From: Planctomycetota bacterium
GTDB lineage: Bacteria > Planctomycetota > UBA8108 > UBA1146
Assembly: GCA_002691835.1 (NCBI GenBank)
Contig: NZJA01000095.1
Coordinates: 1 to 16,467 of the forward strand
Reading direction: 5' to 3'
Length of the DNA: 16,467 bases
Below, piece by piece: positions 1,968-14,194 of this stretch. The position numbers were made by a program, and so were the translations under genes. The notes beneath the pieces are model-generated. The model saw nothing but the letters and a program-made list of their open reading frames with translations, did no database searches and was not told where the DNA came from. The stretch's first letter is position 1. The number at the start of each line of letters is the position of its first letter.

Positions 1968-3632
1968 ATGCTTTGGTTCATCTTGGGGATTTCCCTTTTG
2001 TCACCTGTTACTTCGAATCAGGAACCGGCTCAGCTTCCAGTTAATCTTCCTGCTCCACCAATGATCCTGGAAAATCTTGGAGACTTCCGTCGAGATGTCG
2101 TTACCGATTCGGAGGAGGCACGTCGTTGGTTTGATCAGGGTTACAATTTGATGCTGTCCTTCAACTTCAATGGTGCCATCCGATCCTTCTACCAGGCAAC
2201 GATAGAAGATCCTGAATTTGCCATGGCGTGGTGGGGGATTGCTCATTGTTCTGGCCCGAATATTAACGTCCCAATGATCTTGCCGGGGCCTTTTGCTGAC
2301 TGGTGTTATTCAGCGAGCAAAAAGGCTGCAGAATTTGCAGATCGTGAATCACTGCCGAATCAGGCGATCATTGCTGCTGGGCAACATCGTTATGCGTGGC
2401 CGATGCCTGAGGACCTCTCGGAAGTGAATTCTGCATATTGTGATGCGATTTTGGCGGCCCATGAAAAGTTTCCACTGGATCCGGATGTCGCAGTCCTTGC
2501 CGCAGAATCGATGATGTTGCTGCAGCCGTGGAGTTACTGGAGTCTTGAAGGAGAACCGCAAGAAAGAACACTTCAGTTTAAAGAGATTGTTGAAGGTGTG
2601 CTCGATCGGGATCCCTATCATCCCGGGGCTTGCCATCTCTACATTCATATCATGGAGTCTTCTCAAACTCCTGAAATGGCTGAGAGAGTTGCGGATCGAC
2701 TATTAGGCCTGATTCCTGGAGCAGGTCATATGGTCCATATGCCTTCTCATATCTGGATGAACACAGGGCGCTATGCAGAATCCGCAGACTGTAACAGAGA
2801 TGCGGTTGCTCTGGATGATCTCTGGTTTGAGCGTAACGGAGGCCCGACCGATTACTATTTTTATGGAATGCACAATCGACATTTCCTCGGCTACGCCACA
2901 TTGATGCTGGGAAGAAGTCGCGAATGCATTGAGGTGACCTCTGCTATCGCCAAAGAGGCACCCTCTGAGCTCTTCATGCAATTCGCCTCTTTCAGTGATA
3001 GCTGGGCGGCTTCTGAATATCACGTCCTGGTCCGCTTCGGTAAGTGGGAGGAAATCCTTGATAAGCCGATGCCGCCAGAGTGGCGTTTTGTTTCCAGAGC
3101 AGTCCTTCATTATGCGCGAGGGGTCGCTTTTGCAAACACGGATCGATTCGAAGAGGCTCGTCTTGAGCTGGCGAAATTAGATGAGGCGATTCAGCAGATC
3201 CCCGAAGATTTCACCATGGGAAGCAGTCCATGTGATGAGGTTTTCGCAGTGGGCCGCAGGGTTCTCGAAGGGGAGATTCTCTTTAAGGAGGGAAGTCGCG
3301 AAGAAGCCCTCGCCAAGCTTCGAGAAGCGGTGGATCTGGAAGATCAACTGGAGTATTCGGAACCGCCTTCCTGGCCTGTTCCGGCGCGCCATCCTCTTGG
3401 GGCATTGCTGAATACAGCCGGCAAGTTCGAGGAAGCGGAAAAGGTCTTTCTCAAGGATCTGAAACATTATCCAGCCAATGGCTGGGCACTGATTGGTTTG
3501 ATGAATGCCTTGGAGGGACAAGGTCGCATGGAGGAAGCCGCGATCACCCGTGGTTCATTTAGTGAGGCATGGAAACATGCTGACGTCCAGCCCACCTCTG
3601 CCTGTTATTGCGGTGAAATCGGTTCTAAGTAA
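1968..3632 (+). CDS. Exported tetratricopeptide-repeat protein
   Basis: The 554-residue protein begins with a short hydrophobic segment (residues 2-14) that looks like a signal peptide or N-terminal anchor. Near residues 45-105 it carries the opening block typical of a widespread TPR family: E-A-R-R-W-F-D-Q-G-Y-N-L, F-N-F-N-G-A-I-R-S-F, D-P-E-F-A-M-A-W-W-G-I-A and G-P-N-I-N-V. Helical repeats with the TPR small/large residue pattern continue, with clear A-helix/B-helix pairs near 395-415, 440-470 and 490-540. TPR arrays mediate protein-protein contacts, and no catalytic motif is visible. The ATG at 1968 is preceded by a purine-rich tract (1951-1963) that can serve as ribosome binding site. 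The gene stands alone, divergent from the desaturase and followed by a large hairpin. Confidence 0.9.
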   Translation: MLWFILGISLLSPVTSNQEPAQLPVNLPAPPMILENLGDFRRDVVTDSEEARRWFDQGYNLMLSFNFNGAIRSFYQATIEDPEFAMAWWGIAHCSGPNINVPMILPGPFADWCYSASKKAAEFADRESLPNQAIIAAGQHRYAWPMPEDLSEVNSAYCDAILAAHEKFPLDPDVAVLAAESMMLLQPWSYWSLEGEPQERTLQFKEIVEGVLDRDPYHPGACHLYIHIMESSQTPEMAERVADRLLGLIPGAGHMVHMPSHIWMNTGRYAESADCNRDAVALDDLWFERNGGPTDYYFYGMHNRHFLGYATLMLGRSRECIEVTSAIAKEAPSELFMQFASFSDSWAASEYHVLVRFGKWEEILDKPMPPEWRFVSRAVLHYARGVAFANTDRFEEARLELAKLDEAIQQIPEDFTMGSSPCDEVFAVGRRVLEGEILFKEGSREEALAKLREAVDLEDQLEYSEPPSWPVPARHPLGALLNTAGKFEEAEKVFLKDLKHYPANGWALIGLMNALEGQGRMEEAAITRGSFSEAWKHADVQPTSACYCGEIGSK

Positions 3633-3652
3633 TACAGAGTTGAATCGGTGAA

Positions 3653-3698
3653 GCAAATCAAGCCTTGGAGCTCTCTGGAGTTCCGGGGCTTGATTTGC
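3653..3698 (+). repeat. 46-nt near-perfect inverted repeat / RNA hairpin
   Basis: The arms 3653-3673 and 3678-3698 can pair along 21 positions around a TCTG loop (3674-3677). The outer 12 pairs are perfect. The three non-Watson-Crick positions are T-G, T-G and G-T, so all 21 pair in the plus-strand RNA, while the opposite transcript would have three A-C mismatches. It starts 20 nt after the TPR stop codon and ends 58 nt before the first AIM24 start. No T-run follows on either strand, so it is not a standard intrinsic terminator. It may be an mRNA 3'-end stabiliser or a palindromic repeat element. Confidence 0.8.
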
Positions 3699-3756
3699 AT
3701 CTGGGGGCGTGCTCGACTTTGATTGTCCTGGTGATGAATCCAGAAGGGGTAAATCG

Positions 3757-4416
3757 ATGGAATTTGAGATTAAGGGTAATCCTGAATTTGGGGAGGCCGT
3801 GGCCCAGCTGGAATCCGGGGATTCATTTCATGCCGCTTCCGGGGCGATGAACTGGCTTCGGGGTCCAGTGTCCTTCAAGGCCCGTCTGATGGGAGGCCTT
3901 GGCAAGTCCCTCATTCGAAAAGTGCTCGGCGGGACTTCGATGTTTGTCAACGAGTACAAGGCGATCGGTCCCTCTCAGGTGGCGTTTTCCCACATGGTGG
4001 CCGGAACACTGGTACAGATGCCGATCACTTCCGAAGGAATGCTGATTGCGGGCGGATCTTTCACGGCCTGCACCCAGGGTGTGAATCTGCGGACCCGATT
4101 CGGTGGGTTCAAGGCCTTCTTCAGCGGCAAGGGCGCTTTCTTCATCGAAGCCTCCGGATCAGGAGAGATCTTCTTTGGTGCCTATGGGGCAGTGGTCGAG
4201 AAGGAGCTGGATGGGGAACTGATCGTTGATAACGGTCATGTCCTTGCCTGGGAGAACACCCTCGACTGGAGCCTCAAGGGTGCAGGTGGGCTCAAGAGCA
4301 CGCTCTTCTCCGGTGAAGGATTGGTCATGAGATTTAGTGGTCGAGGACGCATTTGGCTGCAGACCCGTCATCTGGCGGGGACGGCGGGGTGGATCACCCC
4401 GTTCTTGAGAGCTTAG
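3757..4416 (+). CDS. AIM24 family protein, first of three tandem copies
   Basis: The 219-residue protein belongs to the AIM24 / TIGR00266 family, a beta-rich fold related to a yeast mitochondrial biogenesis factor. Its biochemical function is not established in bacteria. Family signatures are a G-D-S-F-H-A-A-S-G-A-M block near 28-38, G-G-T-S-M-F-V-N near 58-66, G-G-S-F-T-A near 95, F-F-S-G-K-G-A-F-F-I near 118-128, and a C-terminal F-S-G-E-G-L-V-M-R-F-S-G-R-G near 185-199. I chose the ATG at 3757 over a start 48 bp upstream because AAGGGG (3745-3750) lies just before it and the protein then begins directly with the conserved domain. The next gene starts 8 bp after the stop, so the three AIM24 genes form an operon. 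Confidence 0.92.
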   Translation: MEFEIKGNPEFGEAVAQLESGDSFHAASGAMNWLRGPVSFKARLMGGLGKSLIRKVLGGTSMFVNEYKAIGPSQVAFSHMVAGTLVQMPITSEGMLIAGGSFTACTQGVNLRTRFGGFKAFFSGKGAFFIEASGSGEIFFGAYGAVVEKELDGELIVDNGHVLAWENTLDWSLKGAGGLKSTLFSGEGLVMRFSGRGRIWLQTRHLAGTAGWITPFLRA

Positions 4417-4424
4417 GGGGATCG

Positions 4425-5114
4425 ATGAAATTCAACATTCTCGAAACCGGAGCTTTTCAGTCTGCTCTCGTCGAGTTTGAGCATGGCGAGGAATTTTTCA
4501 GCGAGTCAGGAGCGATGGTGCGTGCTTCTGGCAACGTTGACATGGATGTATCGACTCGCAGCCGCGGAAAGAGCGGCATCATGGGCGGAATCAAGCGCCT
4601 CTTCAGTGGTGAGTCCTTCTTTGTCAGCACCTACAAGGTGGGACCCGGTGAAACGGGTGAGGTCGGATTGGCGCCGGTTCTGCCCGGCGAAATGAAGACC
4701 GTCAACCTTGATGGATCGACCACCTGGGTCTGTTCGGGAGGCTCCTTCATCGCTGCCGGTGGTGACGATGTGGAAATGGAATCCAAGTTTCAGGGATTCG
4801 GCAGTGTCTTCAGTGGCGAGGGAATGTTCTTCCTCGAGGTTTCCGGAGTCGGGACTGCTCTGGTCGGTGGTTTCGGTGCTCTGCATGAACTGGAAGTCGA
4901 TGGAGAGTTGACTCTCGATACCGGTCACCTGATCGCCTACGAGAAAACCCTCGATTACAAAATCACCAAAGCTGCCAGTTCGTGGACCCAGAGTTTTCTC
5001 TCGGGTGAGGGCTTTGTCATGAAGTTCGAGGGGCAGGGCAAGGTGATCGTCCAAACCCACGATGCCAGTCTGTTTGGATCGAATCTCGGCCCGCTGTTGC
5101 CGGAGAGGCAGTGA
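4425..5114 (+). CDS. AIM24 family protein, second of three tandem copies
   Basis: The 229-residue protein matches the AIM24 / TIGR00266 layout: G-E-E-F-F-S-E-S-G-A-M near 21-31, F-S-G-E-S-F-F-V-S near 60-68, C-S-G-G-S-F-I-A near 103-110, F-S-G-E-G-M-F-F-L near 130-138, and F-L-S-G-E-G-F-V-M-K-F near 200-210. The start at 4425 follows an AGGGGG ribosome binding site (4415-4420) that overlaps the previous stop codon, which argues for it over an ORF start 72 bp upstream. The protein has clearly diverged from its two neighbours, so the triplication looks old rather than recent. Function is unknown. Expression is presumably shared with the flanking copies. Confidence 0.92.
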   Translation: MKFNILETGAFQSALVEFEHGEEFFSESGAMVRASGNVDMDVSTRSRGKSGIMGGIKRLFSGESFFVSTYKVGPGETGEVGLAPVLPGEMKTVNLDGSTTWVCSGGSFIAAGGDDVEMESKFQGFGSVFSGEGMFFLEVSGVGTALVGGFGALHELEVDGELTLDTGHLIAYEKTLDYKITKAASSWTQSFLSGEGFVMKFEGQGKVIVQTHDASLFGSNLGPLLPERQ

Positions 5115-5117
5115 TCA

Positions 5118-5858
5118 ATGAAATACCGCATTGAATGTCAACCTGGTTACTCCTATCTCGAAGTCGAACTGGATCCCGGTGACAGCATCGCTTCCGAGGC
5201 GGGGGCAATGGCGTGGATGGACCCTTCCATTGACATGGAGACGTCCACCCGTGGAGGAGTCTTCTCAGGTCTGAAGCGTGCATTGCTCAGCGGAGAGTCT
5301 TTTTTCCAGAACACCTACACCACAGAGGAATCCGGTTCTCGGCTCGCTTTGGCACCCGGACCTTCGGGGGCCATCGTGGCTCTCGAATTGAACGACGAAG
5401 AGATTTTCCTGCAGAAGGGTGCATACCTGGCCTCTATCGGTGATATCAAGATTGATGCCAAGTTCGATGGACTCAAAGGTTTCTTCAACGAGGGTCTCTT
5501 CATCCTCAAGTGTTCCGGAACCGGAACCCTCTTCTTCAATGCCTACGGGGATATCCAGCAGGTGCAGCTGACGGGACAGAATGTCGGTCAGGACGTGGAT
5601 GACCTCTTCGACGATGAGTGGGAGAGTTCGGTGCAGGTTCCGGGTGACTACACCGTCGACAACGGCTTCGCCGTAGCCTGGGATCCGAGTCTCAACTATC
5701 GATTGACCACCGGACGCAAAATTCGTCAATTCCTCTTCGGGGACCAGATCATGCTGCGTTTTTCAGGGCAGGGGCGGGTTTGGGTCCAGAGTCGCAGTCC
5801 CCAGGCCTTCGCCAGCTGGATCCACCCTTATCGTCGAGTGAAATCGAAGAACAATTGA
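5118..5858 (+). CDS. AIM24 family protein, third copy, with acidic insertion
   Basis: The 246-residue protein is the third AIM24 / TIGR00266 member. It shares the family blocks G-D-S-I-A-S-E-A-G-A-M (21-31), L-L-S-G-E-S-F-F-Q-N (56-65) and the C-terminal R-F-S-G-Q-G-R-V-W-V-Q (214-224). Unlike the other two copies, it carries about 24 extra residues (153-176), rich in Asp and Glu with one Trp, just before the conserved D-N-G-F-A-V-A-W strand. It starts 3 bp after the preceding stop, with GGAGAGG (5102-5108) as ribosome binding site inside the upstream gene. A small inverted repeat (TTTCCC 5878-5883 with GGGAAA 5890-5895) follows but lacks a T-run. The insertion suggests a specialised loop or partner site in this copy. 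Confidence 0.92.
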   Translation: MKYRIECQPGYSYLEVELDPGDSIASEAGAMAWMDPSIDMETSTRGGVFSGLKRALLSGESFFQNTYTTEESGSRLALAPGPSGAIVALELNDEEIFLQKGAYLASIGDIKIDAKFDGLKGFFNEGLFILKCSGTGTLFFNAYGDIQQVQLTGQNVGQDVDDLFDDEWESSVQVPGDYTVDNGFAVAWDPSLNYRLTTGRKIRQFLFGDQIMLRFSGQGRVWVQSRSPQAFASWIHPYRRVKSKNN

Positions 5859-5919
5859 TCGGTCCGACACGATCCACTTTCCCGATGAAGGGAAATTGGA
5901 GGGGGATGAGAGGTGAAAA

Positions 5920-7059
5920 ATGACGATGAATGAAAAAGCCACCCAGGCGATCCGTGAAGTGGGAACGCGTAATGAAGCTTCTGCCGGAACTGTTCTGATA
6001 GAGGAGGGGGTTTTCGACGAGACTCTCTTTTATCTGGAAAAAGGCAGTGTTGAAATCATTCACGGTGATGATGTCGTCGACACCATCTCTGCCGGCGATG
6101 TTTTTGGTGAAGTGGCATTTGTCGAAAGGCGACCACGAACTGCCACCGTCAGGGCGGCGGAGGATTGCACCTATGTGGCAGCGGAGCGACCCGATCTGTT
6201 GCGATCCCTTTCGAATGACTCGGAAGCGCTCTTCGACTTTGTGCAGGCAATCGAGGAACGAAGAAGTGCCCACATGGCAGCCGGCGAAATTCAGGAAGTG
6301 GATGCTTTCCTCGAAAATGTCGCTGCTGAGGCGACCTCTCACAGGGCGGTTCATCACCCCTATCTTCTGGCCTTGCGAAACAAATCACTTCCCGACATGA
6401 AGTGGGCTCTTGCCGATTTTGCCAGGCAGTATCTGGGCTACTCCTCTCATTTTCCACGCTATCTGACTACCGTCATTGGTCGACTCGAAGTGCCTGAACA
6501 TCGGACTGCTCTCATGGAAAACCTGACGGAAGAATCGGGGATCTACGAGAGCGAAGAGATGGAAGAACTGGCGGAGATCGGCGTCGAGAAGGAATGGATC
6601 GATGGGGTTCCCCATCCGGTGCTCTTCCGCCGTTTCTGTATCGCGGCCGGTGCCGATCAGGCATCGCTCTCTGAAGATACGGTTGAAGTCGTGTGTTGGC
6701 GCGAAATGTTCCTCGCCGTTCTTTCGGGTGGTTCCACTGCAGAAGCCCTGGGTGCTCTCGGATTGGGCACCGAGAATGTGGTCAGCACGATGTACCAACA
6801 TTTTCTTCCAGCGTTGGAAGTACTGGATGCGCCTGCTTCAGAGACAGTTTTCTTTCCCTTGCACGCAGCAGTGGATGATCACCATCAGGAGACCTTGATG
6901 AATATCTCCCGTCACTACGCGGCAACCGCTGAGGGGCGCAGGGATCTGCTCAAGGGGATGCGCAAGGCCCTTTCACTGAGAGCGGGATTCTGGGATTGGC
7001 TCCATGCCCGGGCGTTGACCCAGGGGAAATGTGACGAGGGTGCCACGTTGATGTTTTGA
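5920..7059 (+). CDS. Fusion: cyclic-nucleotide-binding domain + haem-oxygenase-like diiron (HDO) domain
   Basis: The 379-residue protein has two parts. Residues 15-115 form a CRP/PKA-type cyclic-nucleotide-binding beta-barrel: glycines at turn positions, F62-G-E64-V-A as the ribose-binding element and R73-T-A-T-V carrying the phosphate-binding Arg. There is no helix-turn-helix after it. Residues 125-365 are all-helical and resemble the haem-oxygenase-like iron-oxidase families (CADD, UndA, BesC; TENA/PqqC fold). Candidate metal ligands are E205 in N-L-T-E-E-S-G, H232 in H-P-V-L-F, E285, and H315-x3-D319-x2-H322, the last with the same spacing as CADD. I infer a diiron oxygenase gated or sensed through a nucleotide ligand. 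The AGAGGTG before ATG 5920 is the likely ribosome binding site. The gene lies 61 bp after the AIM24 operon on the same strand, so co-transcription is possible. The substrate is unknown. Confidence 0.85.
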   Translation: MTMNEKATQAIREVGTRNEASAGTVLIEEGVFDETLFYLEKGSVEIIHGDDVVDTISAGDVFGEVAFVERRPRTATVRAAEDCTYVAAERPDLLRSLSNDSEALFDFVQAIEERRSAHMAAGEIQEVDAFLENVAAEATSHRAVHHPYLLALRNKSLPDMKWALADFARQYLGYSSHFPRYLTTVIGRLEVPEHRTALMENLTEESGIYESEEMEELAEIGVEKEWIDGVPHPVLFRRFCIAAGADQASLSEDTVEVVCWREMFLAVLSGGSTAEALGALGLGTENVVSTMYQHFLPALEVLDAPASETVFFPLHAAVDDHHQETLMNISRHYAATAEGRRDLLKGMRKALSLRAGFWDWLHARALTQGKCDEGATLMF

Positions 7060-7100
7060 TCGTCCCTGGATGTTTTGATCGTCCCTGGATGTTTTGATCG
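7050..7100. repeat. 19-bp tandem repeat (2.7 copies) covering the stop codon of the cNMP-HDO gene
   Basis: The 19-bp unit GATGTTTTGATCGTCCCTG occurs at 7050-7068 and 7069-7087, identical, and again for its first 13 bases at 7088-7100. The first copy contains the last codons and the TGA stop (7057-7059) of the cNMP-HDO gene. The third copy runs into a short hairpin, GATCGC (7096-7101) with GCGATC (7106-7111) around TCCG. Perfect identity suggests a recent slippage or duplication event. It lies between two convergent genes. Confidence 0.93.
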
Positions 7101-7124
7101 CTCCGGCGATCAGTCGACAGGGTT

Positions 7125-8054
7125 CTAGCCGACCACCCATTGACGCAGTAGCAATCTTGGAGCATCCGGATCGTCCTCGTAGGCGGTGCGATCGTGCAGC
7201 GTCGTCGTGTTATCGACCCACAGCATCTCTCCACGTTTGAGGGTAAAGGTCGCCACCGAGTCCGGTTCTTCGAGGATGGCGTCGAAGCAGTCGAGGGCTT
7301 CCTGTAATCGCGGATGCGGTTTGATCTCCGCTTTTTCGTAACCCTTTTCGATCCAGAAGCGCATGTAGCGGCAGATCGGCCCGCGGGATGCGTCCCTGAC
7401 ATCAAAGACGGCGAAGCGATTGCGCAGCCGTTGGCTCTGGTCTGCTCCTGGTGTGACAATGTCGCGGTAGTGCGGTTCTTCGAGAATGCGGCACAGCTCA
7501 GGGTATTGTTGAGAAAGTTTCTGGTGGGCGAGGAGGGCGCAGGCGATGCGCGAGGCACCGCCCTCGGGTGCGGGGCGAATACAGATCAGGCCGACCAGAT
7601 CGGGCAGTACATCGACGGCGCTGGAATCGGTATGCAGGCCGGTGGCTGCTCTCGTTTGACTGACGGGGATCGCCGTCTTGGTGTAATCTCCGCCCCGGTC
7701 CCTGACTTCGTAAAGGCGACCGTAGTTGCCCAACGGAGTTCCGAGGTGAACCCCGAAGGCGAGGTAGTAGCGACGCAACAGATCATCGTCGATCAGCGCT
7801 TCCGGAGGTGCAGAGACGCGAACCACGCCGCTGCCGTGATAGACCTCTTGCCGGGTCTGAAGGGCCAACTGCTCGAGACGAGACATCCCTGCCACGGCAC
7901 CATGGGTGACTTCATCGTCGACGACTTCCGGGCAATCCCTGCGCCACTGCAGCAACTCCTCGATGATGCCCTCATCGAAATCCAGGGTGTGCTCGGTGCG
8001 CTGGGCAAGATCCGCATTGGTCCATGCTTCACGGGAGTGGGGGGCAGAGTTCAT
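7125..8054 (-). CDS. TauD/TfdA-type Fe(II)/2-oxoglutarate-dependent dioxygenase
   Basis: The 309-residue enzyme carries the facial triad of this superfamily: H141-T-D143 (in G-L-H-T-D-S-S) and distal H287 (in T-L-H-D-R). Arg300 or Arg304 in R-L-L-L-R-Q-W is the likely 2-oxoglutarate carboxylate ligand. The segment P151-D-L-V-G-L-I-C-I followed by G-G-A-S-R also fits the TauD / gamma-butyrobetaine hydroxylase clan. Family members hydroxylate, desaturate or halogenate small molecules. Here the Asp is present, so hydroxylase-type chemistry rather than halogenation is expected. I chose ATG 8054 over an upstream in-frame start because a perfect AGGAGGT lies 6 nt before it. The methyltransferase stop is 4 bp upstream, so the two are co-expressed. 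The substrate is not deducible. Confidence 0.92.
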   Translation of the reverse strand: MNSAPHSREAWTNADLAQRTEHTLDFDEGIIEELLQWRRDCPEVVDDEVTHGAVAGMSRLEQLALQTRQEVYHGSGVVRVSAPPEALIDDDLLRRYYLAFGVHLGTPLGNYGRLYEVRDRGGDYTKTAIPVSQTRAATGLHTDSSAVDVLPDLVGLICIRPAPEGGASRIACALLAHQKLSQQYPELCRILEEPHYRDIVTPGADQSQRLRNRFAVFDVRDASRGPICRYMRFWIEKGYEKAEIKPHPRLQEALDCFDAILEEPDSVATFTLKRGEMLWVDNTTTLHDRTAYEDDPDAPRLLLRQWVVG

Positions 8055-8058
8055 CGGG

Positions 8059-8067
8059 TCACCTCCT
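8059..8067 (-). promoter_or_regulatory. Ribosome binding site overlapping the upstream stop codon
   Basis: On the minus strand AGGAGGTGA (8067-8059) lies 4 nt before the dioxygenase ATG at 8054, with the AGGAGGT core 6 nt away. Its final TGA (8061-8059) is the stop codon of the methyltransferase gene. Ribosomes finishing the methyltransferase are therefore placed at the dioxygenase start. This fixes the dioxygenase start and argues for fixed co-production of the two enzymes. Confidence 0.85.
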
Positions 8068-8829
8068 GACTTTGAAGGCCATGTGCAGCGGAAGGTCTGC
8101 CAAAGGACCGAAGAAGGCCGCATCCTCTGCGATCATCTCCTCGGTGACTGCGAGCTCACGGAAATCCGGAAAGTGCACAAATCCTGCAGACCGCAGTCCG
8201 TCGAGGACATCCTGGAAAGTCTTGTGCAGGCAACGTACCGAGACTTCCGATCCATCTTTCTGGGCCATTCGACCTTCAAAAGTCTGGTCACGCCCGCTGA
8301 ACCAACCACCGGATTTGTCGAAATGAAAACTGTCGGTCCCCGTGTCCATGAAGGGGTTGACCGGGTGTGGCAGCGAAAAGATGAAGTGTCCTCCGGGAGT
8401 CAGGTGGTCATGGACCTTTTGCATGGACTGGTGCATTTGCTCAACAGTGGTGTAGTTGTAGACAAAAACTGCTGTGATCAGATCGTAGACTTCGAGGTCT
8501 GGGCTGAAGTCAGTGGCACAGCCGACCGAGTAGGAGATTCCCAGCGGGTTCTGTTTCTCATTCGCCTCAGCGAGCTCGATCATTCCTGCGCTGATATCGA
8601 TTCCTTCGAGGTGCCCGGCGGGCTCGTCAGCGGAGCGTGCCAGTTGTCGGGTGAAGTAGCCCTCACCACAGCCGAGGTCGAGAACCCTTTGATTTCCGAT
8701 GGAGGAACACCACTGAAGCAGAAAGGGACGCGCGGTCCAGTCTGACAACAATCGGGGCTCATCCCGCGCCCAATTTTTGGAGGTGTCATCAAACATGTCT
8801 CGGGAAGATCGATCTGCCATGGCATCCAT
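8059..8829 (-). CDS. Class I SAM-dependent methyltransferase
   Basis: The 256-residue protein has a Rossmann methyltransferase fold: motif I V49-L-D-L-G-C-G-E-G-Y-F, motif II ending G-I-D78-I (acidic residue for the SAM ribose), and the post-motif strand L-T-P-G-G-H-F-I-F-S at 143-152. The C-terminal half contains S-L-P-H-P near 152-156 and a W-F-S-G stretch near 176, typical of small-molecule methyltransferases of the Methyltransf_11/25 type rather than rRNA or DNA enzymes. The start is uncertain: ATG 8829 and ATG 8820 (Met4) both lack a clear Shine-Dalgarno. The gene lies directly upstream of the dioxygenase, which suggests both modify the same small molecule. A plus-strand reading frame of 279 codons (7906-8745) crosses it but has no recognisable domain. 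Confidence 0.9.
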   Translation of the reverse strand: MDAMADRSSRDMFDDTSKNWARDEPRLLSDWTARPFLLQWCSSIGNQRVLDLGCGEGYFTRQLARSADEPAGHLEGIDISAGMIELAEANEKQNPLGISYSVGCATDFSPDLEVYDLITAVFVYNYTTVEQMHQSMQKVHDHLTPGGHFIFSLPHPVNPFMDTGTDSFHFDKSGGWFSGRDQTFEGRMAQKDGSEVSVRCLHKTFQDVLDGLRSAGFVHFPDFRELAVTEEMIAEDAAFFGPLADLPLHMAFKVRR

Positions 8830-8933
8830 TTCGAAAACAGTTCATTGAACCGGGTCTATTCTAAGTGTGCAGGACGCTGATTCCCAGAGGTCGTTGCAGG
8901 TGCGGGGCCCCCGTTTCAGCCTGTCTCCTTCGA

Positions 8934-9179
8934 TCAGGTATTCTCGTCGGGAGGGTCGATAATCTCTGCCAGGGAACGAATCTCCTCTCCACTGAGGATG
9001 TTCCTCTCTTGCAATCGTTGCATCAGCATCGTGACCAACAACTCGAGCTGTTCATTCTCTTCTTCGAGAGAGGAATATTGAGAACCCGGTAAACCAGTTA
9101 AATCTGCTGTTTTTACCCCATGGATGGACTGCCAGTCCCTCCATGCTCTGGCGGGTGGATTTGATTCGACTGCGGACAA
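8934..9179 (-). CDS. Small coiled-coil hypothetical protein
   Basis: The 81-residue frame is hydrophilic and acidic. Residues 38-60 (L-E-E-E-N-E-Q-L-E-L-L-V-T-M-L-M) have the heptad pattern of a short coiled coil. They are followed by Q-E-R-N-I-L-S-G-E-E-I-R-S-L-A-E, a helix-turn-helix-like pattern seen in small proteins where a leucine-rich helix precedes an I-L-S/T-x-E-E-I motif. The only start available after the in-frame stop that immediately precedes it is TTG 9179 (or an internal codon), and no strong Shine-Dalgarno is visible. It lies 104 bp upstream of the methyltransferase on the same strand and may be the first gene of that operon. I do not recognise a named family. The designed-looking heptads are the main reason to call it. 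Confidence 0.5.
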   Translation of the reverse strand: MSAVESNPPARAWRDWQSIHGVKTADLTGLPGSQYSSLEEENEQLELLVTMLMQRLQERNILSGEEIRSLAEIIDPPDENT

Positions 9180-9271
9180 TCACCCATGCTGGGGGTTCTC
9201 TGGCCTGCTCGCTGAAACGTGAATCGAATCCCGATTCAGAAAGCGGAATGACTCTTGTTGAGCCCTCTCCA

Positions 9272-9280
9272 TGCTATGAT
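9272..9280 (+). promoter_or_regulatory. Candidate extended -10 promoter for the nfu-Rieske operon
   Basis: The sequence TGCTATGAT (9272-9280) matches an extended -10 element (TG, one base, then TATGAT). The region upstream (9252-9260) holds only a weak -35-like stretch, as expected for an extended -10 promoter. It would give a leader of about 67 nt before the Nfu ATG at 9355. It sits in the 175-bp gap between the divergent small coiled-coil gene and nfu. Confidence 0.45.
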
Positions 9281-9354
9281 TTCACTTGTGATCCTCAGGG
9301 AGTTCCGACGGTGAAGCCGGACCTTCCAGGAAGAATGAAAGGGAGCACGCTGTT

Positions 9355-9948
9355 ATGAATGAAGAACTGAAGATTCAGATCGAACCTTGGGAATCAGACT
9401 CCGACACCTGTGTTCTGCGATTGAACCGTGTGGTGGCCACCTCTCCCGAGTACTTCTCCACTGCTGAGGAAGCGGCCGATAGCCCCCTCGGAAAAAAGTT
9501 GGTGGCGATCCAGGGACTCGAAGCGGTCCTGATGCAAGATAAGGTCATCACTCTTCTGAAACCGGTCGACGGTTCAGACTGGCAGCCGATGGTCGACCAA
9601 GCCACTGATTTGGTTCGTCAGCACTTTATGGAATTTGATCGGGTGATCTCCGAGCGTAGCCGTGACATGAATGATGATGAGAAAGCGCTCTTCATCGAGA
9701 TTCAGAATCTCCTCAACTCAGACCTGAATCCTATGGTCGCTGCCCATGGTGGATTTATTGAAGTTGTCGACGTCAAGGACAACGATCTTTTCATTCATAT
9801 GGGGGGGGGTTGTCAGGGGTGTGGCATGGCCGCTGTGACTCTGCGTCAGGGAGTGGAGACATTGATTCGCCAGAAAGTTCCGACGATTCAGAATATCCAC
9901 GACTCTACGGATCATAAGGCTGGGGAGAATCCCTACTATGCCAACTGA
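9355..9948 (+). CDS. Nfu-type iron-sulfur cluster carrier (Nfu_N + NifU C-terminal domains)
   Basis: The 197-residue protein has an N-terminal Nfu_N-like domain (about 5-92; F-S-T-A-E-E-A-A-D-S-P-L-G and I-Q-G-L-E-A-V-L near 34-59). A linker leads to a NifU C-terminal domain (about 112-180) with the cluster-binding pair C153-Q-G-C156 in G-G-G-C-Q-G-C-G. Proteins of this layout receive Fe-S clusters and deliver them to apo-enzymes in the cytoplasm. The C-terminal tail (181-197) is unconserved. AAGGGAG (9339-9345) precedes the ATG by 9 nt. The three glycines before Cys153 are encoded within a run of nine G residues (9801-9809), a possible slippage site. The gene overlaps the Rieske gene by 11 bp, so the carrier may serve that partner. 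Confidence 0.93.
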   Translation: MNEELKIQIEPWESDSDTCVLRLNRVVATSPEYFSTAEEAADSPLGKKLVAIQGLEAVLMQDKVITLLKPVDGSDWQPMVDQATDLVRQHFMEFDRVISERSRDMNDDEKALFIEIQNLLNSDLNPMVAAHGGFIEVVDVKDNDLFIHMGGGCQGCGMAAVTLRQGVETLIRQKVPTIQNIHDSTDHKAGENPYYAN

Positions 9949-10276
9949 AGCCGGGGGAGATTGGCACGATCTGTGTGCCTTTGCTGAAGTCGATGCTGAA
10001 GAGCCGTTCTTCACCCAAGCCGGCGGCCGCGAGCTGATGGTGATCAGAGTGGCTGACGAGGTTTCCGTTTTTACGGATTCATGTCCTCACATTGGAGCTT
10101 CAATGATGGGAGCAATGGTGGAGGATGGGCATGTCGAATGTCCTCTCCATGGCGCCTGCTTCGATGCCCGCACCGGAAAAGTCAGCGATGGCCCGACAGA
10201 CAAAAACCTGCAGTTCCACCCGGCCAAGGTCGATGGAGACCGGGTTTTTGTGAAACTGCAGCCCGCCACTGATTAG
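9938..10276 (+). CDS. Rieske [2Fe-2S] ferredoxin
   Basis: The 112-residue protein is a stand-alone Rieske domain of the oxygenase-ferredoxin / NirD-like type. The two cluster boxes are C49-P-H51-I-G and C68-P-L-H71-G, followed by A-C-F-D and the G-K-V-S-D-G-P turn. The spacing of 16 residues between His51 and Cys68 is normal for soluble Rieske ferredoxins, which pass electrons to non-haem iron oxygenases. No catalytic oxygenase domain is attached and there is no signal peptide, so it is cytoplasmic. It overlaps the Nfu gene by 11 bp and has GGGGAG (9924-9929) as ribosome binding site. A role as electron donor to the nearby iron oxygenases is inference. A nitrite reductase small-subunit role is less likely, as no large subunit is present. 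Confidence 0.93.
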   Translation: MPTEAGGDWHDLCAFAEVDAEEPFFTQAGGRELMVIRVADEVSVFTDSCPHIGASMMGAMVEDGHVECPLHGACFDARTGKVSDGPTDKNLQFHPAKVDGDRVFVKLQPATD

Positions 10277-10347: not shown

Positions 10348-11184
10348 ATGTCCAATAGCAGCCTGATTAAAGCGTTGCTGATTGTATTGCTAATGCCGCT
10401 GACCGGTTGCCTGGTCGTCAAATCCGACCTTGCCAAGCTCGACGAGCAAAGTGGAGCGCTGACACTGGAGATCGACACCACCAGTGAAGCTGAAGGTGAT
10501 TCGGTCGAGGAGTCGGCCAGCGAGCCTGAAGTCGATCCTGAAAAATTGGCCGCCCAGCAAGAAAAAGTTGAAGAGCTGGAGCACAAAGTCGCCGAGATGG
10601 AGATGGATCTTCACATTGCTGAGTTGGAGCGGGAGCTCTCTCACGAAGCGCTGAATCATCGATTTGAAGAGCTTCGAAGGGCCATCGAGGAAGCGGAACA
10701 TGAAATGCATATGTTTCATGATTTCGACCGTCCGACTCGGGAGTACCAAAGCCGCCGATCGGTCGTCTTTGCAGAAACTCGCCTCAAGGATTCCCGTACT
10801 GAGTTGGAGCAGTTAGAAATGCTGTATGCCGGTTCTGAGTTAGAAGATGGAACTGCGGAGTTGGTTTTACAACGCGGTCGAATGAGCTTGGCAAGGGCTG
10901 AAGAAGCTCTCCAGCAAACACGCCGGGAGCACCAGGTCGAGATGGAAGTTCGAATCCCTCGAAGTGAGGCTCAATTGCAAAGGTCGATCGAGCGTGCAAA
11001 TCGTGATCTGGAGAGAGCTGAGACAGAGAAGGAAATCTCCAGCATTCAGGAAGAGCGAAAGTTTGACAAGATGCAGCGAGAGCTGGATGAGCAAATGGAA
11101 GAGTTGGAAAAAGCGATTCATGACCTGCGAAACATGACAGGTGTCGAGGAGCATTCCAGTCCCGTTGCTTGGGGAATCTTTTGA
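10348..11184 (+). CDS. Coiled-coil lipoprotein of unknown function
   Basis: The 278-residue protein starts with a basic/hydrophobic signal and a lipobox L-T-G-C at Cys21, so it should be lipid-anchored in a membrane. Residues 36-65 are acidic and low-complexity (Ser, Glu, Asp). Residues 68-130 and 190-265 are rich in Glu, Arg, Lys and Leu with heptad spacing and should form long alpha-helical coiled coils, separated by a short break near 128-140. No enzyme motif is visible. GGAGG (10339-10343) lies 4 nt before the ATG and fixes the start. The stop overlaps the next gene's likely TTG start in a TTGA tetranucleotide, so the lipoprotein and the secreted toroid protein are probably co-translated partners. 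Confidence 0.88.
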   Translation: MSNSSLIKALLIVLLMPLTGCLVVKSDLAKLDEQSGALTLEIDTTSEAEGDSVEESASEPEVDPEKLAAQQEKVEELEHKVAEMEMDLHIAELERELSHEALNHRFEELRRAIEEAEHEMHMFHDFDRPTREYQSRRSVVFAETRLKDSRTELEQLEMLYAGSELEDGTAELVLQRGRMSLARAEEALQQTRREHQVEMEVRIPRSEAQLQRSIERANRDLERAETEKEISSIQEERKFDKMQRELDEQMEELEKAIHDLRNMTGVEEHSSPVAWGIF

Positions 11185-12449
11185 TCGTTACTTCACTCAT
11201 CCTTCTGAGTCAGCTTCTGGTTAATCCAGCCTCCGCAGCAGAGCCGCTGGAGGATTGGCGTGTTGAGACCCGTGCTGGCCTCGAAAAGGCCGTCCAATTC
11301 CTTCTCGACCATCAGGAGGAAGACGGAGCTTTCGGTCACTGGCGCAATCCACTCTCCCCCGATGACAAGAATTGGATGGTTCCTGAGCAGCATTTTGCTT
11401 TTCAGGTTGCGATTACCGGGATCTGTTGCGTCACGTTGATGGATCTGGGTTCTGATCTTCCGGATGGAGGCGAGCAAGCTCTGGAGCGAGCCCTCGACAA
11501 CATCTGTGAAAATGGCCGAAGAAAAAGGATTGCCAATTGGGATACCGATAACCTCTGGGGGTACGTCTATGTCCTGGAGGCGGTGGCTCGGGCGTTAGCT
11601 GAACCGGAATTACGATTTGGCCCTGAGCGCCGCGCGCGCCTGAGGAAATTGGGTGAAGACCTGATTGTGACCCTCGGAAATTATCAGAGTCCAGACGGCG
11701 GCTGGGCCTACTACGACAATTCCCCCTTCACTCGTCGACCCACGTGGGGAACTTCATTTGTGACTGCTTCGCTGTTACTGATCTTTGAGCAGTGTGAACA
11801 GATTGGGCTGGAAGTCCCTGACAAAATGCAGGAGCGAGGACTTCGGGCTCTTCGCAGAACTCGCCTTCCCAATGGTGCCTATGATTACAACATCGATCCG
11901 ATCCAGACGACGCGGAACTTGCTCTCCATCAATCAGATCAAAGGATCTCTTTGTCGGATTCAGGTCGGAAACCTCGCATTGAGAAGACTCGGAGACCCGG
12001 ACGAGATCACGAACGAAAATATCGTGACTGGACTCGATCAACTCATGAGACACCACAAGTTTATCTCACTGTCCCGTGGTCGGATCTATCCTCATGAAGC
12101 CTATTATGCCAATAGTGGGTATTTCTTCTTTTACGGGCATTACTACGCTGCGGATGTGATCCGTCAGTTGCCATGGGATCTGCGCGAGCAGTGGTGGCCA
12201 CGCCTGTGTCAGAAGATTCTTGAGACTCAAGAAGAAGACGGATCGATGTGGGATTACGCTTTCTTCTCTTACCACAGAGTTTACGGAACCGCTTGGTCGA
12301 TATCAGTTCTCGCCAAGGCCTTGGCTGATCACGAGAATCTGCGGGTTCCCGCAAAGGGGAAGCCGAATGGCTTTTCGGGACAAGAATCAGAGAAGGAAAG
12401 CCGTGAGGAACCGGTGGAGACTCCTCGGGAGCCTCAAAAGCTACGCTGA
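11181..12449 (+). CDS. Secreted prenyltransferase/squalene-oxidase-repeat (alpha-alpha toroid) protein
   Basis: From TTG 11181 the protein has 422 residues: a signal peptide (about 1-20, with A-S-A before the mature A-E-P) and a helical body. Repeats end in aromatic QW-like turns: E-D-G-A-F-G-H-W, S-P-D-G-G-W-A-Y-Y, L-P-N-G-A-Y-D-Y and E-D-G-S-M-W-D-Y. These are typical of the squalene-cyclase / prenyltransferase toroid superfamily. The squalene-hopene cyclase D-x-D-D motif is not seen, so an active triterpene cyclase is unlikely. Secreted members of this fold are common in planctomycetes and mostly uncharacterised. TTG 11181 is preferred over TTG 11169 because GGGGA (11171-11175) is correctly spaced and the start forms a TTGA overlap with the lipoprotein stop. 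The C-terminal 45 residues are charged and probably disordered. Confidence 0.88.
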   Translation: MIVTSLILLSQLLVNPASAAEPLEDWRVETRAGLEKAVQFLLDHQEEDGAFGHWRNPLSPDDKNWMVPEQHFAFQVAITGICCVTLMDLGSDLPDGGEQALERALDNICENGRRKRIANWDTDNLWGYVYVLEAVARALAEPELRFGPERRARLRKLGEDLIVTLGNYQSPDGGWAYYDNSPFTRRPTWGTSFVTASLLLIFEQCEQIGLEVPDKMQERGLRALRRTRLPNGAYDYNIDPIQTTRNLLSINQIKGSLCRIQVGNLALRRLGDPDEITNENIVTGLDQLMRHHKFISLSRGRIYPHEAYYANSGYFFFYGHYYAADVIRQLPWDLREQWWPRLCQKILETQEEDGSMWDYAFFSYHRVYGTAWSISVLAKALADHENLRVPAKGKPNGFSGQESEKESREEPVETPREPQKLR

Positions 12450-12523
12450 CCGGTCTCGCTGTTCGTGGGGGAAGATTCGGAAATTGCTCTCATGAAAACC
12501 GAGTCGCAGGTCTCTGGAAATCG

Positions 12524-12547
12524 TCACTGAATAAATCACTGAATAAA
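12524..12547. repeat. 12-bp perfect tandem duplication
   Basis: TCACTGAATAAA occurs twice in direct succession (12524-12535 and 12536-12547) in the non-coding region between the toroid gene and the terminator. It resembles a simple slippage duplication, and no function is apparent. Confidence 0.9.
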
Positions 12548-12572
12548 ATTGAGTCACAGGAAACAGTGGATG

Positions 12573-12611
12573 AAAAAAAGGGTGCGGAGATGACTCTCCG
12601 CACCCTTTTTT
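12573..12611. terminator. Strong bidirectional intrinsic terminator
   Basis: An 11-bp GC-rich stem (GGGTGCGGAGA at 12580-12590 with TCTCCGCACCC at 12595-12605) around a TGAC loop is flanked by seven A (12573-12579) and six T (12606-12611). It therefore terminates transcripts from both sides: the lipoprotein-toroid operon on the plus strand and the small Cys-rich lipoprotein on the minus strand, whose stop codon is 15 bp away. Confidence 0.95.
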
Positions 12612-12625
12612 ATTGAAAACTCAAA

Positions 12626-12808
12626 CTACTTGCAGGAACCGCAGCAGCTGTCCTTCTCGGAACCGCACTCGGCTGCTTTGTCAGCACATGAAGTGGCACA
12701 CGCGGAAGCGGCGCACTCAGACTTCTCTTCGCCACCCTGAGGAGCAAAGATACAACCAGCGGTGGAAAGACCGCCAACAACGACAAGAGCAAGAAGAAGC
12801 TTTTTCAT
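12626..12808 (-). CDS. Small cysteine-rich lipoprotein (60 residues)
   Basis: The 60-residue protein has a textbook lipoprotein signal: M-K-K, a Leu/Val core and lipobox S-T-A-G-C at Cys19. The mature part has 42 residues, eight of them Cys: the lipidated Cys19, then 32, 37, 41, 48, 55, 56 and 59. It ends C-C-G-S-C-K and is otherwise rich in Ala, Ser, Glu and Lys. The spacing resembles metal-binding (metallothionein-like) or disulfide-rich peptides. No named family is recognised. AAGGAGAG sits 5 nt before ATG 12808, and its own strong terminator follows, so it is a monocistronic, probably well-expressed gene. A short hairpin (12826-12839) lies in its leader. Metal storage or envelope stress functions are guesses. 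Confidence 0.85.
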   Translation of the reverse strand: MKKLLLALVVVGGLSTAGCIFAPQGGEEKSECAASACATSCADKAAECGSEKDSCCGSCK

Positions 12809-12965
12809 CTAACTCTCCTTTCCTGGCCGCCTGTGCGGCATGACTTGGGAAATGCAATATCGGGAGCAACCAAACTCCCTGAACCTACGATTTAAGCAGG
12901 TTTCTTCGGCAACTCAACGGGATTTCTTGCGAGAGAGTTCCTGTTGTGGTGCAGATTCCCCAAAT

Positions 12966-12988
12966 TTGCCTGATGAGCCTGCAGGCAA
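12966..12988 (-). terminator. Possible hairpin terminator after the GHL10 gene
   Basis: TTGCCTG (12966-12972) and CAGGCAA (12982-12988) form a 7-bp stem with a 9-nt loop, 6 bp beyond the stop codon of the GHL10 lipoprotein on the minus strand. The stem is followed only by ATTTGG rather than a T-run, so any termination would be weak or factor-dependent. The rest of the 186-bp gap up to the Cys-rich lipoprotein must carry that gene's promoter, but I see no clear consensus boxes. Confidence 0.3.
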
Positions 12989-12994
12989 CCCGAT

Positions 12995-14194
12995 TTAAGG
13001 TGATTGGGGCAAGATTTGGACCCTTCTCGACTTTTGTAGCGGGGTTTCTGCCACATTGGGGTCGGTGCTCCAAAAGGCGGAGTAAGCAAAATGGCTGACT
13101 CCCTGACACCCCTGAATCAGCGAACTCTGCTCCTGTGCAAGGGTTACTTTGGGATCTGCATGAAGGTAGGTCCCGAGTCCCATGATGACGGGGTACCCGC
13201 GAGCCGCATCCATGCACTCGGCAACCCTGGATTCGAATCGAGGAATCTCGCGGTCATACTGCATCGGGAAGACCGCATCGATGTGCCCCCGTCTTAACCA
13301 ATTGGGCCAATCCTGTCGAACTCGGTCGTGAGCGATACGGGGAGTCCGATAGACCGCAGCAGTCATCAGAACATCCCTTCGGGCCTTTCGACAACGCTCG
13401 GAGATCACTCGTACCATTTCGGTAACCTGGTCTCTCCGCCATCGATCCCATGCCCTGCGATCGTCATCGGGTGATGCAACCCCTGTCTCTGTCGTGAACA
13501 GTTGCTCGCTTCGAGAATCACGGGGGTAATCTTTCTCGACTCCCGATTCGAGAAAGCGGATGTAATCGAGATGAATGCCAGCAACCTCCGGATACCACGC
13601 GAGGATTTCTTCACAGATCTTCGATACGTGATCACGGACTTCAGGATAGGAGGGATTCAGAGCCACATAGTAGTTGGGTTGAAGCGGTTGACGCTGACCA
13701 TCTTTCGAATGGAGAAACCAGTCTGGCTGACTGTTCCAGAGTTGATCGGGGGTCGTAGTTGGAGGGGGTGTGGTTCCGCGCCAGCCAGGAACGGCATTGA
13801 TCCATGCGTGCAGTTGCAGATCTCTGACTCGAGCTTCTCGACATGCTGCTTCAAGTGGATCAAACCCCGGGTCAGTGTAGTTGAACTCTTCAGCCCAAGG
13901 TTCAATGTTGGAGGGATAGAAGACGGTGCCATTACCCCGAACCTGAAACAGAACAGTATCGAACCCGGCCTTGTCGATGTTCTCCATCAAGTCGACGATA
14001 TCTTGTTCAGTCTTGTAATCCCAACGGGTGACCCAGATCGCTTTACGGATGGGCACTTCGGGGTTTTGGCTACAGCCACTGAAGAAACCGACGAGGAAAA
14101 TCCACAGCATGGCTAGAATCGGTGACCGTGGAAATCGTTGGGGTTGCTGCAAGCCATCATCCTTACTACTTGGGAATAGGGTCACATCTCTCAT
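12995..14194 (-). CDS. GHL10 / DUF187 glycosyl-hydrolase-like lipoprotein (YngK type)
   Basis: The 399-residue protein matches glycosyl-hydrolase-like family 10, a TIM-barrel relative of GH families. Visible blocks are A-I-W-V-T-R-W-D near 52-59, F-D-T-V-L-F-Q-V-R-G-N-G near 78-89, L-H-A-W-I-N near 128-133, N-P-S-Y-P-E-V-R near 180-187 and the hallmark G-I-H-L-D-Y-I-R-F at 206-214, which carries the presumed catalytic Asp210. A hydrophobic stretch ending F-F-S-G-C places the lipidated Cys at 41. The n-region is unusually long, but ATG 14194 forms an ATGA overlap with the upstream stop, which supports it over Met29 (14110). It is probably anchored in the envelope and acts on a polysaccharide of unknown type. 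Confidence 0.9.
   Translation of the reverse strand: MRDVTLFPSSKDDGLQQPQRFPRSPILAMLWIFLVGFFSGCSQNPEVPIRKAIWVTRWDYKTEQDIVDLMENIDKAGFDTVLFQVRGNGTVFYPSNIEPWAEEFNYTDPGFDPLEAACREARVRDLQLHAWINAVPGWRGTTPPPTTTPDQLWNSQPDWFLHSKDGQRQPLQPNYYVALNPSYPEVRDHVSKICEEILAWYPEVAGIHLDYIRFLESGVEKDYPRDSRSEQLFTTETGVASPDDDRRAWDRWRRDQVTEMVRVISERCRKARRDVLMTAAVYRTPRIAHDRVRQDWPNWLRRGHIDAVFPMQYDREIPRFESRVAECMDAARGYPVIMGLGTYLHADPKVTLAQEQSSLIQGCQGVSHFAYSAFWSTDPNVAETPLQKSRRVQILPQSP

Follow-up and report, generated by a model that had tools for sequence, protein, structure and literature searches.

A cyclic-nucleotide-binding domain joined to a predicted haem-oxygenase-like dimetal oxygenase in a planctomycete, and the enzyme genes that recur beside it

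The locus and its domain architecture

Here, we examine a gene in a 16,467-nucleotide stretch of DNA (the window) from a Planctomycetota bacterium (contig NZJA01000095.1 of assembly GCA_002691835.1), whose product, referred to as CNB-HDO, joins an N-terminal cyclic-nucleotide-binding (CNB) domain to a haem-oxygenase-like dimetal oxidase (HDO) domain. Beside it lie genes for a TauD/TfdA-type Fe/2-oxoglutarate dioxygenase and a class I S-adenosylmethionine (SAM) methyltransferase. These two enzyme types and a cupin form, with the HDO, a recurring set. The features of the locus are listed in Table 1.

Table 1. Positions of the features at the CNB-HDO locus, counted from the first nucleotide of the window
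Feature	Position	Strand	Remarks
CNB-HDO gene	5920..7059	+	ATG start; open reading frame of 379 aa
CNB domain (PF00027, cNMP_binding)	5977..6213	+	residues 20-98
Pocket glutamate E64	6109..6111	+	118/118 aligned of 120 listed homologues, 2 gaps
Cyclic-phosphate arginine R73 (presumed)	6136..6138	+	117/118 aligned of 120 listed homologues, 2 gaps
Joining helices, CNB to HDO	6220..6339	+	residues 101-120 and 127-140; DSSP of the model
HDO domain	6289..7023	+	structural span, residues 124-368; Pfam, residues 166-354
E205, predicted metal ligand	6532..6534	+	120/120 listed homologues; aligned with CADD E81
H232, predicted metal ligand	6613..6615	+	120/120 listed homologues; aligned with CADD H88
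E285, predicted metal ligand	6772..6774	+	120/120 listed homologues; aligned with CADD E142
H315, D319, H322, predicted HxxxDxxH ligand helix	6862..6885	+	aligned with CADD H174, D178, H181
TauD/TfdA-type Fe/2-oxoglutarate dioxygenase gene	7125..8123	-	convergent with CNB-HDO; PF02668, E 2.1e-29
Class I SAM methyltransferase gene	8059..8829	-	PF13649, E 3.4e-19
Three AIM24/TIGR00266-family genes	3709..5858	+	3709-4416, about 4425-5114, 5118-5858

Both domains score above their Pfam cut-offs, PF00027 with an E-value of 5.6e-16 (58.7 bits versus 27.5) and PF14518 (Haem_oxygenas_2) with one of 8.2e-23 (81.5 bits versus 28.9), which bears out the domain pair proposed in the initial annotation. The predicted structure is confident (predicted local distance difference test score, pLDDT, 92.3; predicted template modelling score, pTM, 0.75) and, at the level of the fold, superposes on HDO as well as CNB crystal structures; the N-oxygenase HrmI is its top-listed match, and for the N-terminal barrel the matches are cAMP- and cGMP-related structures, as expected of the nucleotide-type barrel that had been suggested. 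The annotation had further held that a DNA-binding domain is missing and that the C-terminal part is an HDO rather than a TenA-type domain, and both points stand: this part is PF14518, and PF03070 (TENA) gives no match in CNB-HDO at E<=0.1. The protein thus differs from the CRP/Vfr transcription factors, having an enzyme-type C-terminal part in place of their helix-turn-helix, and a CRP-type regulator or CRP/FNR transcription factor was rejected as its identity.

CNB-HDO or its profile also matches CNB-regulated proteins, namely PKG, PKA-R, EPAC, the mycobacterial Pat acetyltransferase, the Bd1971 EAL enzyme, and PycTIR, in all of which a CNB domain is joined to an enzyme, effector, or regulator part and a DNA-binding domain is absent. 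To our knowledge, none of these is an oxygenase, and we know of no BesC, CADD, HrmI, UndA, or similar HDO that carries a CNB domain.

The predicted metal site of the HDO domain

A homologue search with CNB-HDO returned 608 proteins at E<=0.001, and the 120 that were listed, among them the window's own protein (P0001), form the basis of the conservation counts. The six candidate diiron ligands named in the initial annotation are each kept in all 120. In an alignment that used a profile of 28 CNB-free relatives, the six family ligands fall one for one on the CADD residues of Table 1, which we take to be the metal ligands of that enzyme. The resulting E-H-E-H-D-H set and the seven-helix fold are common to BesC, CADD, HrmI, UndA, other PF14518 HDOs, and CNB-HDO, and the set is retained, with rare exceptions, in all architectures of the subfamily (252 HDO domains). 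It contains the three histidines and three carboxylates characteristic of the superfamily, the same composition that is given for CADD in the accessible part of PMC11965152, and about 85% of analysed HDO groups have E-H-X-H-D-H or E-H-X-H-E-H (PMC11363339). In the model, helix alpha1 is interrupted by a loop, as in CADD and SznF according to the available text of PMC11611611, with 26 residues between E205 and H232; the Glu-His spacing on this helix is accordingly 27, versus 10 in SznF (E215, H225). On these grounds CNB-HDO would be expected to bind metal, and its HDO domain is very probably a working dimetal oxygenase.

CADD is among the closest solved relatives, which invites the reading of CNB-HDO as a self-sacrificing p-aminobenzoate (pABA) synthase of the CADD type, or as a TenA/PqqC-type enzyme, with an added regulator. 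In CADD, Tyr27 is sacrificed and Lys152 acts as the donor (PMC11965152, in the portion available). These residues align with L149 and F295 of CNB-HDO, so that the latter is not a pABA synthase of this type: position 149 is leucine in all 120 listed homologues, where position 295 is F, L, or C. Leucine also occupies position 149 in all 16 compared sequences (the window's and those of 15 loci), with F, L, or I at position 295. The TIGR04305 score is 36.2 versus a cut-off of 200. A TenA/PqqC enzyme was likewise rejected, given the six-ligand set and the lack of a PF03070 match at the threshold above; several relatives match both PF03070 and PF14518. Taken as a whole, this alternative appears very improbable. 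The BesC equivalog NF042919 scores 36.5 bits, versus a cut-off of 500.

A recurring set of HDO, methyltransferase, TauD-type dioxygenase, and cupin

Loci were tallied in 27 genomes, comprising 12 Planctomycetota, 9 Myxococcota, 5 Cyanobacteriota, and 1 Acidobacteriota, some on short contigs and with related species that are not independent of one another. At least one of methyltransferase, TauD, and cupin occurs at the locus in 20 of the 27; methyltransferase and TauD lie together within it in 13, and a cupin is fused or adjacent in 13, none of them among the 12 planctomycete loci. At L095, a partial TauD match (32% identical over 161 aa) was not counted as a partner. The CNB domain is present in 17 genomes, that is, in all 12 Planctomycetota, 4 Myxococcota, the single Acidobacteriota, and none of the Cyanobacteriota.

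The arrangement varies among lineages. In six planctomycete loci (L001-L006), the methyltransferase and TauD pair flanks CNB-HDO, and all five cyanobacterial genomes examined combine a CNB-free HDO with methyltransferase and TauD: in Cyanobium (L015) the HDO gene is followed by homologues of both, and in the other four (L027, L028, L082, L083) the order is an HDO-cupin fusion, methyltransferase, and TauD. A cupin gene 44% identical to the cyanobacterial fused cupin overlaps the start of CNB-HDO in a member of Blastocatellia (L029), and a homologous cupin gene adjoins the HDO gene in eight of the nine myxococcal loci. Two of the latter (L097, L098) carry CNB-HDO, methyltransferase, TauD-type dioxygenase, and cupin in a single row, with CNB-HDO first. 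The cupin family is distinctive, its HxHxHE and PRWxxHQ residues being kept in 23-24 of 24 aligned sequences. Moreover, the HDO is directly fused to a methyltransferase in two proteins (P0125, P0128), the methyltransferase being 44-45% identical to that of the window across nearly its full length. We consider it probable that the four enzymes share a real pathway.

SznF/StzF and SznE/StzE of the streptozotocin pathway offer a similar combination, in which SznF, uniting HDO and cupin, acts together with SznE, a methyltransferase of arginine (PMC11705231, as far as the available text describes it). By analogy, the methyltransferase might methylate a guanidino or amino group, the HDO N-hydroxylate it, the cupin rearrange the product to an N-nitroso or similar group, and TauD add a hydroxyl. 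The combination of HDO, cupin, and methyltransferase does occur in the examined loci, the top-listed fold match HrmI is itself an N-oxygenase, and SznF (6m9s) is the one listed row that spans both parts of the model of the cyanobacterial HDO-cupin protein, a model with a pLDDT of 77.4 and a weak second half. However, neither cupin sequence nor domain arrangement ties the subfamily to SznE and SznF. Its cupins find other cupins by sequence; the window protein, with its CNB, lacks a cupin, chains that unite HDO and cupin being found only in relatives such as L027; and the window's set adds a TauD-type dioxygenase. Among working analogies for the enzyme set, SznE and SznF come closest; this particular chemistry seems improbable.

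Distribution of the subfamily and gain or loss of the CNB domain

Subfamily members were collected by three database searches from chosen query seeds, which listed 120 of 608, 120 of 611, and 42 of 42 proteins, respectively; one entry in which the HDO was not found (P0162) was left out. The 257 listed HDO-domain proteins include 156 CNB-HDO proteins, and the fusion for which a search across genomes had been suggested is accordingly widespread; 80 show no recognised second domain, 12 are cupin-HDO, 7 HDO-cupin, and 2 HDO-methyltransferase. With partial listings, chosen seeds, and fragments (such as P0095, P0204, and P0255 within the 156), these proportions are not unbiased. In a tree of the HDO domains of 252 proteins, which like the ligand counts leaves out five with fewer than 200 aligned HDO residues, CNB-fused and CNB-free forms are interleaved, several supports being low, implying repeated loss and/or gain of the CNB domain. 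The best reading is that the domain is an optional regulator, repeatedly lost or gained. Four proteins (P0226, P0235, P0251, P0253) retain just the two ends of the 118-position CNB profile, up to position 40 and about 89-116, and lack the middle with its Glu and Arg; such remnants are likely a trace of sensor loss, or apparent intermediates in it.

The distribution of the HDO subfamily is sporadic. It was found in 12 of 392 Planctomycetota genomes, 5 of 386 Cyanobacteriota (3 of 244 in another draw), 9 of 292 Myxococcota, and 1 of 297 Acidobacteriota (with a CNB-containing profile, the first pass being crowded by other CNB proteins), in draws that also contained genomes whose positive status was known beforehand. 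In another 14 Planctomycetota genomes the matches lie only between 1e-33 and 1e-41 and the open frames measure about 230-260 aa; these are presumed to be CADD-like. Database entries extend CNB-HDO to Deltaproteobacteria (P0091, P0104), Fuerstiella (P0132), and Phycisphaerae (P0152). A metagenome-assembled genome (MAG) of Cyanobacteriota encodes a protein (P0094) with a CNB and a canonical RPRTA cassette, so the CNB-free state of the five examined cyanobacterial loci is not a phylum-wide rule. The subfamily HDO of Microcystis aeruginosa (P0122) represents 434 member sequences. No relatives of CNB-HDO were found among viral contigs, and plasmids yielded one record (34% identity across 60% of the query). 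One of the tallied loci (L007) is labelled as a Bacillota MAG; its genome, G006, is placed within the phylum of the planctomycete G002.

The nucleotide pocket and a possible gating mechanism

The CRP-type pocket residues reported in the initial annotation, F62-G63-E64 and R73-T74-A75, are present in the window protein, whose cassette (FGE...PRTA) is canonical. E64 and R73, the Glu and Arg of the PF00027 phosphate-binding cassette, are near-invariant in the homologues (Table 1), R73 presumably being the cyclic-phosphate arginine with the role that it has in CRP and PKA. Of the 120 listed homologues, 105 have V and 5 have F at position 62, and the family motif is therefore VGE, not FGE. The best sequence matches of the CNB are cGMP-dependent kinases, and a Thr after the key Arg favours cGMP, as in PKG, without being decisive; cGMP is thus as plausible a ligand as cAMP. 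Class III cyclases lie above the Pfam cut-off in all ten CNB-HDO genomes searched. Nucleotide binding by the window's CNB is likely, whereas the gating of catalysis or of metal loading by that nucleotide is an evenly balanced proposition.

On balance, we favour a cyclic-nucleotide-gated HDO oxygenase that acts in an undescribed small-molecule pathway with a SAM methyltransferase, a TauD-type dioxygenase, and often a cupin. The computed basis consists of the domains, the conserved ligands and pocket, the gene linkage, the fusions among relatives, and the class III cyclases in ten related genomes. CNB-HDO would be a dimetal (Fe/Fe or Fe/Mn) HDO-type oxygenase with an N-terminal nucleotide sensor and would catalyse one oxidative step, alongside the SAM methyltransferase, the Fe/2-oxoglutarate dioxygenase of the TauD type, and the metal-binding cupin that many lineages add. 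The class III cyclases of the cell would supply cAMP or cGMP, which would bind at E64 and R73 within the barrel; the C-helix (residues 101-120), leading into the first helix of the HDO (127-140), would move upon binding, and this movement may alter access to the HDO site, metal loading, or O2 reactivity. Our first guess at the chemistry is N-oxygenation, or cleavage of a C-C or C-N bond, in a methylated substrate that resembles an amino acid. The most comprehensive form of the proposal, in which cAMP or cGMP on the CNB switches the HDO and an undescribed four-enzyme pathway recurs in Planctomycetota, Myxococcota, Acidobacteriota, and Cyanobacteriota (there often sensor-free, Microcystis included), is put forward tentatively.

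Several observations weigh against a nucleotide-gated oxygenase with these partners. The cassette GE-x(7-9)-R[TSA]A is matched by 120 of the 156 CNB-HDO proteins and not by the other 36, so that the canonical cassette of the window is typical of these proteins without being shared by all. Four of the 36 have just 45-96 residues ahead of the HDO; most of the other 32 keep Glu and Arg and read RTK, RTR, RRN, RVA, RIA, RCA, or similar, and one of the two residues is lost in P0056, P0116, P0203, P0207, P0213, and P0214. Both genomes with the full four-gene row (L097, L098) read R-R-C. Some CNB folds bind no nucleotide, and class III cyclases are common among bacteria, which makes their presence merely permissive. 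No CNB was recognised in 101 of the 257 listed members, some of them fragments, so that the core reaction does not require the domain. In addition, seven loci (L007-L012, L030) have no partner, methyltransferase and TauD being absent from within the planctomycete loci L007-L012. Of the genomes of these seven loci, G007 and G008 encode the pair elsewhere, neither gene was found in G010 (nor in the related genome G009) at the thresholds used, and G006 has no methyltransferase match and only a TauD fragment (L044, 6782-7255) alongside an intact CNB-HDO, possibly through decay of the pathway or an assembly gap. The cupin has no match in G001-G008.

Some of these points suit a different reading, in which the CNB senses no nucleotide and serves as a dimerisation or docking module of a constitutive HDO. 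CNB-free relatives are scattered through the tree. In the 32 variants whose N-terminal part is longer, the canonical R[TSA]A is missing, and six of these have lost the key Glu or Arg as well. The missing barrel core of the four remnant proteins indicates that the domain decays. The near-invariance of E64 and R73 in the window's group and its canonical cassette speak against a scaffold, which would have no need of them, and we regard this alternative as unlikely.

Novelty and significance

Automatic annotation has already placed the domain pair in databases, under names such as 'iron-containing redox enzyme family protein' and 'CRP-like cAMP-binding protein', and no publication describing the fusion or the gene set was found in the open-licence PMC literature. 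What is new is the setting, in which the HDO occurs alone, fused to one particular cupin on either side, or fused to a methyltransferase of the neighbouring type, and the four-enzyme set that recurs is of greater interest than the domain pair taken by itself. If true, the proposal would provide the first effector-gated HDO and a new oxidative route to a natural product or metabolite. How HDOs avoid wasting O2 is an open question, one known answer being substrate triggering. An HDO that naturally carried an allosteric nucleotide sensor could be compared directly with its close CNB-free relatives. In addition, the linked genes provide candidates for pathway partners that may help to find the substrate of a large HDO subfamily that includes the Microcystis aeruginosa protein P0122.

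The accessible part of PMC13108848 states that the HDOs studied to date need no protein effector, that O2 activation is substrate-gated in some, and that the regulation of O2 activation is essential to work out; a CNB on an HDO would be a different solution from substrate gating. DtpC of Acinetobacter, a predicted HDO, is tied to survival of desiccation and oxidative stress (PMC13232832, in the text available), an example implying that the role of an HDO need not lie in known biosynthesis.

Other features of the window and of related loci

In the TauD-type product, an HxD motif, a distal His, and an Arg, which we take to be those of the family motif, are visible by eye, and the true start is probably internal, because the listed open reading frame overlaps the methyltransferase gene by 65 bases. 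No promoter-like sites were detected in window positions 3500-9400, and no Rfam matches reached gathering scores. A perfect 19-base tandem repeat (2.7 copies, 7050-7100) extends across the CNB-HDO stop codon and takes up part of the interval before the convergent TauD gene.

The three AIM24/TIGR00266 genes adjoin CNB-HDO in all 12 planctomycete loci, upstream in 11 and downstream in L011, and in none of the 15 loci from other phyla; a functional tie to CNB-HDO was thus set aside and they are treated as lineage neighbours. In a sister planctomycete group (L042, L043, L044), the methyltransferase and TauD pair, with the TauD fragment in L044, has a class III cyclase gene about 2.7 kb away; this proximity was not counted as evidence, being one event in related genomes. 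About 2 kb from the myxobacterial CNB-HDO of L030, a gene (10768-13110, minus strand) encodes a 780-aa protein with two CNB domains, in which an N-terminal FAD/NAD-type reductase part and ferredoxin-like cysteines were recognised by eye. Genes for an NfuA-type Fe-S scaffold and a small Rieske protein lie at 9355-10276 of the window, and the same two genes directly follow CNB-HDO in L007-L010 and L012.
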